A program made the translations under genes and the position numbers. Under the pieces are notes generated by a model. That model did not search any database, was not told the DNA's origin, and worked only from the letters and a program-made list of their open reading frames with translations. Of a stretch of 45,018 bases of DNA, positions 3,360 to 8,626 are shown one piece after another. Position 1 is the stretch's first letter, and each line of letters starts with the position of its first letter. Location: assembly GCA_028696455.1 (NCBI GenBank), contig JAQVGZ010000012.1, positions 1 through 45,018 on the forward strand, in the 5' to 3' direction. This stretch comes from Desulfotomaculaceae bacterium. Its GTDB lineage: Bacteria > Bacillota > Desulfotomaculia > Desulfotomaculales > Pelotomaculaceae.

Positions 3360-4082
3360 TTATTCCATGCGGTGAATCTCCTTTTGCAGTCTCTTGATAA
3401 TCCTTTTTTCCAGCCTGGATATGTAAGACTGGGATATTCCCAATAGATCGGCCACCTCTTTCTGGGTTTTTTCTGCTCCGTTTTCCAGCCCAAAACGCAG
3501 TTCCACGATCTTACGCTCGCGGCCCGATAGTTTTTGTAAGGCGAGATATAGTAGCTTTTTCTCTACCTCATCCTCGATATATTTATAGATAACGTCATTA
3601 TCTGTGCCTAAAACATCAGATAACAGCAACTCGTTGCCATCCCAATCTATGTTTAATGGCTCATCAAAGGATACCTCGGTGCGCGTTTTATTCCTTCTCA
3701 AATACATTAAAATTTCATTTTCTATGCAACGTGATGCATATGTCGCTAGCTTAATCTTTTTTACTGGATCAAAAGTGTTAACCGCCTTAATTAAACCAAT
3801 GGTTCCGATAGAAACCAGATCTTCTATACCTACCCCGGTGTTTTCAAATTTGCGGGCAATATAAACAACCAGCCGCAGGTTCCTTTCAATTAGAACGCTC
3901 CTAACCGCTGCGTCCCCGGATTCCAAACGACTGATCAAAAGGGACTCTTCATCAGTGGTTAAAGGTGGGGGCAAAGCCTCGCTACTCCCAACGTAATAAA
4001 TCCGGGGACGGCGACCAATCCAGACCAGAAAGCGTAAAATCGCCAGGTTAATTTTCCATCTTATACGCCAGAAGTACCTCAA
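3360..4082 (-). CDS. sigE: RNA polymerase sporulation sigma factor SigE (pro-sigma-E)
   Basis: A 240-residue mother-cell sigma factor made as an inactive precursor. The first ~28 residues are a basic, membrane-associating pro-sequence ([18 protein letters not shown]), followed by [13 protein letters not shown], the conserved processing-site region cut by SpoIIGA. Regions 2 and 4 follow; the helix-turn-helix is [17 protein letters not shown] near residue 215. The start is TTG at 4082 with AAGGAT eight bases upstream. spoIIGA lies 37 bp upstream, so protease and substrate are co-transcribed, as in Bacillus spoIIG. Confidence 0.97.
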
Positions 4083-4119: not shown

Positions 4120-5031
4120 TTAAGATATATTTAATAGTTGCGGGTGCATTAAAGCATGGTACGAATCAGCGGGATCTATCCTTTTCTGATGAATGGCTAT
4201 GACAACCCGGCTAACCCGTATCTGGTGTTCATGACGATTAATTACCACCTCATCCGGCCGAAAACCCACCATTAATCCCTCTGCACAACCCAGTGAGCTG
4301 AAAGGGACCACACCGAAACGTGATCTCCACTGGCTCTCACCCATTGTGCTAAGAATGCGCCACACATCCGGTTCTTCTGGCCCCTCATAATAGACTTGCA
4401 ACTCTGCAGGCAGAAGGGGCTTTAAGACCCTGTATTCCACAACGATTACTGCTTGTTTTGTCATGGGATCAATAAGCTGGTTGCCTGTATCAAAAATAGC
4501 ATCTACCTGAACCTGAACCCCTTGTAGTTTTATTAAAATAACTGTTTTAAAGGAATTTTCAAAAATCCGCTTATGCATTAAAACCGCAATACTTTTGCAT
4601 GCTGCCCCAAAGCTTACAATCCCTAAAACTAGTCCGGGCCAAAAATTTTCAGAATCTGCCCAACCGCTGCTGTTAAGACCGGCAATTTGAGCCGGTTGAA
4701 TAAAATAAATCATCCCGAAAATCAACCCGCCAAGGGCAAAAGAACATAAATAAAAGCTGCCCAAACACGCCAGGAATTTTTTTGGTTGAAGTGGTGCAAA
4801 GGTAACAGCAGTAATCATCAAGGAGGCAATGATTTTGCACCATACCGACATGAATATGTTGACTGGTGTAAACAAAGCCAGCGAATAAACAGCCCCCATT
4901 GCCGAGCCTGCTACCAGACGTCCTTTACCGGCCGGTGTCCTGATTATTCTTGCGGCAGCCCATAGGATAATATAATTCATAATAAAGTTTCCGAAAAAAA
5001 CTTGGTCGAGGTAAACAGTATAAAGTACCAC
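4120..5031 (-). CDS. spoIIGA: Sigma-E processing peptidase SpoIIGA
   Basis: Membrane-embedded aspartic protease that cleaves pro-sigma-E at the sporulation septum. Five or so hydrophobic segments fill the N-terminal half; the C-terminal half carries IFDTGNQLIDP with the catalytic aspartate near residue 181 (Bacillus D183). I chose the GTG at 5031, preceded by AGGGAT, because it gives VLYTVYLDQVFFGNFIMNY, the usual family N-terminus, and 303 residues, close to the normal ~300. An in-frame ATG at 5079 would add 16 residues but has a poor ribosome binding site. sigE follows after 37 bp. Confidence 0.92.
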   Translation of the reverse strand: MVLYTVYLDQVFFGNFIMNYIILWAAARIIRTPAGKGRLVAGSAMGAVYSLALFTPVNIFMSVWCKIIASLMITAVTFAPLQPKKFLACLGSFYLCSFALGGLIFGMIYFIQPAQIAGLNSSGWADSENFWPGLVLGIVSFGAACKSIAVLMHKRIFENSFKTVILIKLQGVQVQVDAIFDTGNQLIDPMTKQAVIVVEYRVLKPLLPAELQVYYEGPEEPDVWRILSTMGESQWRSRFGVVPFSSLGCAEGLMVGFRPDEVVINRHEHQIRVSRVVIAIHQKRIDPADSYHALMHPQLLNIS

Positions 5032-5126
5032 AGCCAGATCCCTAACTTCCAGGTAGAATTTAAAAACACTTACTACCATTCTATTACTTTAATTAATTAG
5101 TTATGACAGTTCAGTAAAATGATAAC

Positions 5127-5157
5127 AGCCCTGGCCTTATTATACATTGCCAGGGCT
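5127..5157 (-). terminator. selD terminator hairpin
   Basis: AGCCCTGGC (5127-5135) and GCCAGGGCT (5149-5157) form a perfect 9-bp stem with a 13-base loop. On the minus strand it is followed by a T-rich stretch (TGTTATCATTTT). It lies 40 bp after selD. The loop contains TATAAT, a possible -10 box of the next gene. Confidence 0.75.
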
Positions 5158-5171
5158 TGAGAATTTGTCGG
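5139..5171 (-). promoter_or_regulatory. Candidate Spo0A-type promoter of spoIIGA-sigE
   Basis: TATAAT at 5139-5144 is a perfect -10 and sits in the loop of the selD terminator. CCGACA at 5166-5171 is 21 bp upstream and resembles TTGACA. Such over-long spacing is known for the Bacillus spoIIG promoter, which needs Spo0A. The complementary strand over the -35 reads TTTGTCGGG, close to the 0A box TTGTCGAA. Assignment is inference from position and spacing. Confidence 0.45.
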
Positions 5172-5197
5172 GTCTTGTTTTTGATGGCTATAAATTC

Positions 5198-6253
5198 CTA
5201 ACCTTTTTCTATTAAAATTTGCGGTAAGGTCGATTCTATGATTTCACCAATTTTACGCCCGTTCAATCCTGCCGCAGATAGAAGCCTTACGGCCAATGCC
5301 GCCTGCTCTCTGGGCACAGCTATCAGGAGGCCTCCTGAGGTCTGCGGGTCTGCCAGAATGAGCCTATCAATTTCTTCAATGGAGTTCTCCCACTTTAACA
5401 TCTGATCAAGATACTGCAGATTCCGGTAGGCGCCTGCTGGGATCATACCCATAGCGGCAAGGGACCTGGCTTGTTCTAGCACCGGTATATTGCTGAGCCA
5501 CAACTTTGCGCCTACACCACTGGCAGCCACCATTTCGTATAGATGACCGAGCAGGCCAAAACCAGTCACATCCGTACAGGCGCTTGCTTTGGATTCTATC
5601 ATAACCCGGGCAGCCCGGTCGTTAAGAGCAACCATCAGGTTAACAGCTTCCTGGTAAGCTAGTTTATCAGCCAGATCACCCTTAATTGCTGTTGTTACAA
5701 TTCCGATACCAAGTGGTTTCGTCAAAAACAGGGAGTCTCCTACCCGGGCGCCAGCGTTGGTAATAATACGCTCCGGGTGAACCAGGCCGGTTACAGCTAG
5801 CCCGTATTTCGGCTCTTTATCCTCGATAGTGTGGCCGCCGGCTAAAAGAGCCCCTGCCTCCTTTATTTTGTCCGCACCACCCTTTAATATTGCCACAAGC
5901 ACTTCCAAGGGTAGAACTCCGGTCGGAAACCCAATAATATTCAGTGCCAATAACGGCTTTGCGCCCATAGCATAAATATCGCTTAAGGCATTGGCAGCAG
6001 TAATTGAGCCAAAGGTATAAGGATCATCAACAACTGGGGTAAAATAATCAACAGTCTGCACAACCGCCATATCATCATTCAGACGAAAAACGGCTGCATC
6101 ATCACAGGTGGAAGAACCTACTAACAAGTCCGGATCTTCCACAGGGTCTAACTGGCACAGCACCCGCGCCAGGTCCTGAGGACTAAGTTTGGCTGCTCAT
6201 CCGGCGCAACTTACCATTTGGGTAAGGCGGTATTCCTTTTCCAGTGTCATCAT
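5198..6253 (-). CDS. selD: Selenide, water dikinase SelD, selenoprotein with in-frame UGA
   Basis: SelD makes selenophosphate from selenide and ATP, the selenium donor for selenocysteine and selenouridine. From the ATG at 6253 (AGGAGG just upstream) the frame reads MMTLEKEYRLTQMVSCAG, then TGA at 6197-6199, then AAKLSPQDL and the rest of SelD. The position matches the catalytic CAG(U/C)xxK motif, so the UGA is Sec19 and K22 is the catalytic lysine. Total length is 351 residues with Sec counted, normal for the family. The part after the UGA alone (from GTG at 6163) would lack the active site. It lies between ftsZ and spoIIGA, each separated by a terminator, so it is probably its own unit. Confidence 0.93.
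6169..6199 (-). promoter_or_regulatory. UGA selenocysteine codon with candidate bacterial SECIS hairpin
   Basis: The UGA is 6197-6199. Nineteen bases further on the minus strand CAG-GAC-CTG (6170-6178) can form a short stem with a G-first loop, similar in position and loop to the Escherichia coli fdhF SECIS (CAG-GU-CUG core). An alternative GTCC-TCA-GGAC hairpin overlaps it. Which forms cannot be decided by eye. Confidence 0.5.
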
Positions 6254-6328
6254 TTTCCCTCCTCTTCAAGTAACTGTAATAATTTGTCATGAGTGAAGAA
6301 TTACCTGAGCTTACAGTATATTTTAATC

Positions 6329-6358
6329 AAAAACCCCTACCTTTAGGTAGGGGTTTTT
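6329..6358 (-). terminator. Strong terminator at the end of the dcw cluster (after ftsZ)
   Basis: ACCCCTACC and GGTAGGGGT form a near-perfect GC-rich stem with a tiny loop, flanked by A-runs and T-runs on both sides, so it could work in both directions. It starts five bases past the ftsZ stop and ends the long dcw transcription unit. Confidence 0.92.
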
Positions 6359-6363
6359 CGTAT

Positions 6364-7413
6364 TTATCGTCGTCTCAGAAAAGCAGGTATATCCAGGTCC
6401 TCGTGGTGGGAAAATGGCTTAATTTCAAGATCAGGCTTTGCTGGCTCCTTCTTGCGGCTCACCTGGTCAAATCCGGTAGCAATTACAGTCACCCTAACTT
6501 CCTCTTCCATATTCTCATCAATCACAGCACCGAAAATGATGTTAGCTTCCTGATCGGCAGCCTGTGCTATGATTTCGGCAGCCTCGTTCACTTCGAATAA
6601 TCCCAGTGAAGTTCCCCCGGTGATATTTAAAAGGACTCCCCTGGCCCCCTCAATAGATGTTTCCAATAACGGGCTGGAAATCGCTACCCGGGCAGCTTCA
6701 GTGGCACGGTTGTCTCCTACAGCACTGCCTATGCCCATTAACGCTGAACCGGTTTCCTTCATAATGGTCTTTACATCAGCAAAATCCAGGTTAATTAAGC
6801 CGGGAACAGCAATTAAGTCAGATATCCCCTGCACACCCTGACGCAATACGTCATCTGCAATCCGGAAAGCTTCAACAATTGAAGTGTGCTTGTCAATAAC
6901 CTGTAGAAGACGGTCGTTGGGAATAGTAATTAAAGTATCTACCTTGGCTTTTAATATGTCAATACCATTATCTGCCTGGTTAGCACGCTTGCGTCCTTCG
7001 AAAGTAAACGGCTTAGTTACCACTCCAACAGTCAGGGCTCCCAGCTCTTTTGCAACCTCAGCTACAATAGGCGCAGCTCCGGTTCCAGTGCCCCCGCCCA
7101 TTCCGCATGTGACGAAAACCATATCAGCGCCTCTAACAGCCTGAATTATTTCATCCCGGCTCTCTTCAGCAGCTTTTTGCCCAATATCTGGATTACCACC
7201 TGATCCCAGGCCTTTGGTCAATTTAATGCCAACCTGTATCTTTTGATTCGCCTGCGCCAAGTGAAGAGCCTGGGCGTCAGTATTAACCGCGATAAACTCT
7301 ACGCCTTTGAGTCCCGCGCTAATCATCCGGTTTACTGCGTTATTACCGCCACCCCCGACCCCGATAACCTTAATGTTGGCAAATTGGTCAAGGTCGAGTT
7401 CAAAGTCAAGCAT
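6364..7413 (-). CDS. ftsZ: Cell division protein FtsZ
   Basis: Tubulin-like GTPase that forms the Z-ring. The GTP-binding signature GGGTGTG is at residues 106-112, preceded by [13 protein letters not shown] and followed by the T7-loop region. The C-terminal conserved peptide [11 protein letters not shown], which binds FtsA and other partners, is intact. The length of 349 residues is typical. The ATG at 7413 follows GGAGGAGG. The gene is 31 bp downstream of ftsA, in the same operon. Confidence 0.99.
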
Positions 7414-7444: not shown

Positions 7445-8626
7445 CTAAAATGCGTCTATTGTAGTCTTAATCTTATCCTGGAACCAGTGATAAACCCGAT
7501 CTATTATTTTACCGTTAAACTCATGATAACCATTACTCGTGCTGCCAGGTTTCACATTTTGCATAGAACCATAAACAACAAGACCAAAAGCGTTTGCAAG
7601 ATCCGGTCCGAGAACCTGCTTTGCAGCTTGCGGTACTCCGATTCTTGTAGCTAGCTGCAGGCTTTCTTCAGCTATATTTGTAAGCCCGTCCATCTGGGCA
7701 ACACCACCGTACAAAACAGCCCCTCCCGGCAGTTGACCAGGGTAATTAAAACTTTTTACCTCCCCAGCTATCATGTGAAAGATCTCCTTAATCCGGGCTT
7801 CAATTATAGACTTTACAAAAGTACTGGATACTTTCCGAGATGCCATTTCATCGGTCCCGGCTATTTCAATATTATCTTTCCCGGCGCCGTCCAGGCCTTT
7901 GTAACGCTTCAATACCTCCTGGGCCTGGGCCATGGAAATATGTAGACCTATGGCCAAATCGCTGACCAGGTGTTCACCCCCTATGGACAGTACAGCGGTC
8001 TCCCGGATTAGACCCCGTTCATGAATACTTACTGTCACTGTTGAGGCTCCGATGTCAATTAGTAACGTCCCAAATTCTCTTTCGAAGGGACTTAGCAGTG
8101 CTCCAACTGCTGCCAGCGGGCTGTATACTACATCCTGTACTACAATTTTAGCTAACCTGGCACTCTCAAAAATATTCTTGATATTATGGTTAACAGTTGT
8201 TATTGCCCTGGCTTCCAGTTCAGTGTCCGGCCATGACAGAGTAACCATATTTCTAGGAGGCATAATTGTTAATAATGTTTCACTTACTGGTGTCCCGCTT
8301 GCGGCCCCGACCGGGTCAAATTGAACTAGTTTACCGGCAGCGCCAGTTACGTGGCAGGCCCTAATCAGTATATCAGTGCTGTTATAACCTATAAATGCAG
8401 TATTTGCTTTTACTCCAGCCATCTCCTCGGCTTTATCCAGTGCCTGCCGAATAGATGCAGCTGCTGCAGTGACGTCATTTATAGAACCTTTTTGCATCCC
8501 TATAGTTGGACTTACCCCTACCCCCACTGCCTGCAGGGAACCATTTTTTATCTGGACAATGATCGCCGCTGTTTTAGAAGTACCTAAATCAAGACCGGCC
8601 AGTGTATCAGGATGTCTTTTAGACAA
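7445..8626 (-). CDS. ftsA: Cell division protein FtsA
   Basis: Actin-like ATPase that tethers FtsZ to the membrane. Visible features are the phosphate-1 loop AGLDLGTSKTAAIIV near the N-terminus, the second actin motif LLIDIGASTVTVSIHERG, and a C-terminal amphipathic end (VYHWFQDKIKTTI) that suits membrane attachment. I place the start at TTG 8626, preceded by GGGAGGTG at seven bases; this gives LSKRHPDTLAGLD, as in relatives. An upstream ATG at 8656 adds ten residues that contain the ribosome binding site itself. The protein is 393 residues. Confidence 0.96.
   Translation of the reverse strand: MSKRHPDTLAGLDLGTSKTAAIIVQIKNGSLQAVGVGVSPTIGMQKGSINDVTAAAASIRQALDKAEEMAGVKANTAFIGYNSTDILIRACHVTGAAGKLVQFDPVGAASGTPVSETLLTIMPPRNMVTLSWPDTELEARAITTVNHNIKNIFESARLAKIVVQDVVYSPLAAVGALLSPFEREFGTLLIDIGASTVTVSIHERGLIRETAVLSIGGEHLVSDLAIGLHISMAQAQEVLKRYKGLDGAGKDNIEIAGTDEMASRKVSSTFVKSIIEARIKEIFHMIAGEVKSFNYPGQLPGGAVLYGGVAQMDGLTNIAEESLQLATRIGVPQAAKQVLGPDLANAFGLVVYGSMQNVKPGSTSNGYHEFNGKIIDRVYHWFQDKIKTTIDAF

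Follow-up and report, generated by a model that had tools for sequence, protein, structure and literature searches.

The selD gene of Desulfotomaculaceae bacterium very probably encodes a selenocysteine (Sec)-containing selenophosphate synthetase. Based on the window (the whole 45,018-nt stretch of DNA that was analyzed), the remainder of the genome and related sequences, we put at about 97% the probability that this Desulfotomaculaceae/Pelotomaculum-like bacterium reads the in-frame UGA of selD as Sec by means of a SECIS hairpin with a 9-bp stem. Four things were observed directly: the reading frame, the conservation of the UGA, a covarying hairpin downstream of it, and selA, selB and selC genes within this genome.

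Reading frame and neighborhood of selD

Translation of the minus strand revealed a single SelD frame, in which the only interruption is the TGA at residue 19 (Table 1). The original prediction had extended the frame upstream across this codon to recover a CAG-U-xxK motif, and the translation agrees. The N-terminal residues up to the Sec are MMTLEKEYRLTQMVSCAG, followed by U-AAKLSP; the active-site motif SCAG-U-AAK occupies residues 15–22, and the Cys/Sec and Lys of the N-terminal glycine-rich loop are present. The good ribosome binding site that had been claimed for the start codon is the sequence AGGAGGG; there are two candidate ATGs, of which the one at 6250 is better spaced from the Shine-Dalgarno sequence than that at 6253. 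The full-length protein scores above the cut-offs of the curated SelD family models, both TIGR00476 (E 1.9e-121, 405 bits, residues 9–317; cut-off 125) and PRK00943 (366.5; cut-off 299), and its alignment with the SelD structure 3u0o begins at residue 5 (E 1.2e-74). Plain ORF calling shortens the gene to 5198–6163 with a GTG start, as had been foreseen for automatic annotation, and the truncated frame scores 374.7 bits against TIGR00476, 30 bits below the full frame. Truncation of Sec-encoding selD genes is not universal in RefSeq, where the annotation of the Pusillibacter faecalis gene runs through its TGA. The selD of Desulfotomaculaceae bacterium should likewise be annotated at full length.

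The ftsZ-selD-spoIIGA-like arrangement of the window (4120–7413) is largely preserved in the family, in which most selD loci have ftsZ or spoIIGA close by. Because a terminator-like inverted repeat separates ftsZ from selD, the latter is probably transcribed on its own.

Table 1. Features of the selD region (window coordinates) and of the second-SelB loci (coordinates preceded by a locus label)
Feature	Position	Strand	Basis
selD, selenide water dikinase, 351 aa, predicted Sec at residue 19	5198–6253	-	Translation; TIGR00476; PDB 3u0o
TGA predicted to encode the active-site Sec of SelD	6197–6199	-	Translation; aligned homologs
Shine-Dalgarno AGGAGGG, 3–6 nt ahead of ATG 6253 / ATG 6250	6257–6263	-	Sequence
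Predicted bacterial SECIS, 9-bp stem CUGGCGCGG/CUGUGCCAG, loop GUG at 6163–6161	6152–6172	-	Fold; covariation; RNAalifold; synonymous-codon control
Weaker upstream hairpin GUCC-UCA-GGAC	6173–6183	-	Hairpin search; covariation
ftsZ, upstream neighbor of selD	6364–7413	-	TIGR00065, E 2.2e-135
spoIIGA-like sigma-E processing peptidase, downstream neighbor	4120–5079	-	TIGR02854, 207.3 bits, just below the 209.55 cut-off
Terminator-like inverted repeat AAAACCCCTACC..GGTAGGGGTTTTT between ftsZ and selD	6330–6358	-	Read from sequence
Altered second SelB copies	L103:3781–5703, L134:4745–6667, L135:4913–6835, L137:2140–4059		G1/G3 motifs; intact; monophyletic
Cys selenoenzyme versions at second-SelB loci	L103:1859–2632, L103:5823–7778, L134:6775–9852, L137:337–1113		

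Sec-decoding machinery of the genome

The genome, a draft of 2.69 Mb in 167 contigs (96% complete), was searched for the decoding machinery, and all three genes were found: selA on contig C36 (600 bits), selB directly 3' of it, and a tRNA-Sec with the anticodon UCA (C42:402–495). In this draft, selD, selAB and selC are located on separate contigs. Two FdnG genes, two further formate dehydrogenase genes and two FlpD/MvhD genes likewise have an in-frame TGA at an established Sec position. A second, Cys-type selD was not found in the genome. The only other SelD-like match (C110, 32%) was rejected as a second SelD: it is an AIRS-fold protein without the CAG-C/U-xxK motif, which by eye we take to be ThiL-like. 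Given that the genome has selA, selB and tRNA-Sec(UCA), that no second SelD was found and that TGA stands at a Sec site in at least six other genes, UGA is almost certainly decoded as Sec in Desulfotomaculaceae bacterium, which supports what had been proposed from the window.

A candidate SECIS hairpin within selD

We identified a candidate SECIS in which positions 6172–6164 pair with 6160–6152 and the loop lies 33 nt after the UGA. When folded, the 63-nt stretch from the UGA onward forms this stem as a continuous 9-bp helix, at an energy near that of shuffled sequences (z -0.82). According to published rules, a bacterial SECIS has a loop of 3–9 nt with an early G (among the first two nucleotides) and then G/U, a stem of 4–16 bp, a spacing of 16–37 nt from the UGA and a minimum free energy of -7.5 or lower (PMC13188914). 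The predicted selD element agrees with all of these, having 9 bp, the loop GUG, a spacing of 33 nt and, for the hairpin alone, -12.9 kcal/mol.

For comparative analysis, 28 distinct sequences from the order were aligned without gaps. The 9-bp stem was paired in 94% of the cells, both sides had changed in four of the nine pairs (1.8 in shuffles), and compensatory cells numbered 23 against a shuffled mean of 6.6. The covariation score was 0.305 compared to 0.154 for shuffled alignments, none of 500 shuffles being as high. When the stem columns were slid by 1–3 positions only 18–52% of cells paired, and RNAalifold, unprompted, predicted the 9-bp stem and nothing else. One relative within the order (L045) does not have this stem. 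Since the SECIS region is coding, synonymous-codon shuffling was used as a further control; the observed pairing averaged 8.46 of 9 pairs compared to 6.44 of 9, with P 0.035 for this sequence alone and most individual P values in the range 0.02–0.19. Taken by itself, the hairpin of this sequence stands only moderately above the synonymous-codon null, and its support is comparative. Our analysis gives the SelD of this order a SECIS candidate backed by covariation. Seven Sec genes of the genome, including selD, have candidate hairpins whose loops contain GU; the loops in the other genes are GUC, GUU or CGGU, which is consistent with one SelB reading all of them. Searches with Rfam SECIS_1 (RF00031) returned no match in the whole genome and none in 14 control genomes either, and are hence uninformative; an Rfam search of the window and three loci of the second SelB described below also gave no match.

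The original prediction had placed a short SECIS-like hairpin at 6169–6179. This position did not hold up, as the 49 nt containing it fold no better than shuffled sequences (z 0.10) and the conserved element is the 9-bp stem instead. A weaker hairpin close to it, pairing within 6183–6173, could in principle be the SECIS in use. Some covariation is seen for it within this order (10 cells), and the homologous position carries a hairpin with a G-rich loop in the SelDs of Oscillospiraceae, Christensenellaceae and Mogibacterium. In the present sequence, however, it has only four pairs and a UCA loop without G, in breach of the bacterial SECIS rule; in the alignment of the order it is paired in 79% of the cells compared to 94% for the 9-bp stem, and RNAalifold leaves it unpaired. 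We therefore consider its use in this selD unlikely, and retain the 9-bp stem.

The SelDs of Oscillospiraceae, Christensenellaceae and Mogibacterium (L060–L075, L088–L095) lack the 9-bp stem and have a nearer hairpin, for example UAGGAC-CGGGU-GUCCUA, approximately 16–17 nt after the UGA. In these other clostridial lineages, the stem homologous to 6183–6173 appears to be the better SECIS candidate. Between lineages, the SECIS appears to have shifted by some 16 nt within selD.

Conservation of the in-frame TGA

Near-full-length SelD matches were obtained in 60 related genomes, and each contains an in-frame TGA. In a second set, of named genomes that range from Pelotomaculum to Megasphaera, Nitrospinaceae and Chloroflexi, the codon opposite residue 19 could be resolved at 65 loci, with identities as low as about 45%; it is TGA at 64 of them and TGC at one. 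The ratio should not be read as an unbiased Sec/Cys frequency, since both sets, which have a few loci in common, were collected by similarity searches with a Sec-type query. The context of the codon is also conserved, as (A/G/S)G-U-(A/G)xK, and 3u0o has a Cys opposite residue 19. Judged by this conservation, the in-frame TGA of selD is not due to chance.

If the TGA were a real stop, SelD would be made only from the internal GTG at 6163, as a truncated protein without its catalytic loop. This is the product of plain ORF calling, and the shortened frame still scores as selD. However, the residues on both sides of the TGA are conserved in relatives down to about 45% identity, as is the TGA itself, the GTG (6163–6161) is the loop of the predicted SECIS, and the genome has the complete selA/selB/selC set; we regard a true stop as very improbable. 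The TGA might also be a Cys codon altered by a sequencing error or by mutation in an incipient pseudogene, given that it is one base away from TGC/TGT and that Cys-SelDs are common. This reading is already refuted by the conservation of the TGA, which recurs in independent assemblies both within and outside the order and is followed by a covarying hairpin.

SelD makes selenophosphate from selenide and ATP, with which SelA converts Ser-tRNA-Sec to Sec-tRNA-Sec, and SECIS-bound SelB delivers the latter at UGA. Under the Sec reading, a ribosome starting at ATG 6253 or 6250 would reach the UGA at codon 19, where SelB on the 9-bp SECIS would bring Sec-tRNA-Sec(UCA) and allow translation of the full SelD; without Sec-tRNA, only an 18-residue peptide would be produced. 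As SelD would need Sec for its own completion, its synthesis would depend on its own product. We infer this dependence, along with Sec incorporation and SelD catalysis, from the sequences compared here.

A second, altered SelB

The genome also contains a second selB on contig C64 (G000:C64:3781–5703, locus L103). The gene is intact, and its 640-aa product scores 349 bits against TIGR00475 (cut-off 242) and contains Pfam SelB-wing_2 and SelB-wing_3. The intact G1 and G3 motifs of a translational GTPase (GHVDHGKT, DxPGH) are not retained: G1 reads GHASHGKT instead of GHVDHGKT, with loss of the Asp, and G3 reads DVPGNER instead of DVPGHER, with loss of the His, which is catalytic in translational GTPases (established for EF-Tu). 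The protein retains PVDR and AGQR, which we take to be the Sec pocket, and TSRKYALPLL, presumably the SECIS-binding helix. The same kind of SelB is encoded by relatives G002 (two copies), G013 and G017, with GHASHGKT, GHANHGKT or GHVNHGKT and always DVPGNER. These copies form one clade (support 100/99), every member of which has lost the G1 Asp and the G3 His. Of 113 genomes searched in the order, 4 carry the altered G3 motif, and these represent 2 of 55 genera; a class-wide search covered the same 113 genomes, and no match to the second SelB was obtained in viral contigs. Because dN/dS is about 0.2 compared to 0.1–0.14 for canonical SelB, the altered copies are under constraint, although somewhat looser.

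A decayed selA fragment is present 5' of the second selB in three of the loci compared, L103 (about 3660–3780), L135 and L137, which suggests that the second SelB probably arose from a duplicated selAB operon. A NifU-like CxxC gene lies between this fragment and the divergent neighbor. A conserved block upstream of the second selB was considered as a leader RNA and rejected, since the selAB operons of G003 and G013 show it to be the decayed selA piece.

A Cys version of a selenoenzyme adjoins the second SelB at three of the four distinct loci that were compared. In the window's genome, the gene is located between a Cys-FlpD (CNWC compared to CNWU) and a truncated FdnG, and Sec counterparts of both enzymes are present elsewhere in the genome. 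In G002 the FdnG beside the copy on contig C154 is complete and has Cys (ARLCHSS compared to ARLUHSS), whereas the other copy, on C218, has no Cys selenoenzyme neighbors; in G013 a Cys-FlpD is adjacent. A search for relic SECIS hairpins in the Cys isoforms found that the FdnG-Cys stem is lost and that one FlpD-Cys retains a 5-bp hairpin. The FdnG copy at L103 (5823–7778) lacks its first third and adjoins an IS3-type transposase gene (7827–8609); its truncation is either an insertion or an assembly junction.

Tentatively, and with rather low confidence, we suggest that the second SelB is a hydrolysis-impaired paralog that has kept the ability to bind SECIS RNA, Sec-tRNA or both and serves as a regulator responding to selenium status. 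Such a protein could dampen Sec decoding, that of selD among others, or could control the neighboring Cys FdnG and FlpD. Alternatively, it may be a slowly decaying duplicate, or a SelB that still works with Asn in place of the His.

Comparison with known systems

Sec-containing SelD is an established family, and the present selD is a sound additional member rather than a new family, as had been stated at the outset. Sec-SelDs of Desulfotomaculum reducens, Carboxydothermus and Moorella were listed in 2006 (PMC1794560), and in a reference set 19% of the genes for SelD encode Sec (PMC4561486). The present gene resembles the clostridial Sec-SelD/SPS2 of D. reducens in having Sec at the same single position, the same order-level lineage and a full selABC set. 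Apart from the sequence of the species itself, it differs in its SECIS: other clostridial Sec-SelDs appear to use the nearer hairpin, whereas the SECIS predicted here lies at a spacing of 33 nt. The solved SelDs 3u0o, 2yye/2zod and 2zau are homologous over most of the length, and for 3u0o and 2yye the homology extends to the catalytic loop; 3u0o differs in having Cys at the site aligned with residue 19.

The second SelB shares the winged-helix domains, PVDR and TSRKYALPLL with canonical SelB (TIGR00475) and differs from it in G1 and G3. In the paper collection that we searched, no report of a bacterial SelB duplication was found. To our knowledge, the switching between Sec and Cys enzymes by selenium supply is poorly understood in bacteria, and the broader interest of these loci is that an altered SelB paralog stands beside Cys isoforms and may bear on such switching. 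In Methanococcus maripaludis, Sec and Cys isoforms are switched with selenium supply through HrsM (PMC11097638). If the second SelB were a regulator, it would be a bacterial counterpart of this switch, although HrsM is unrelated to SelB.
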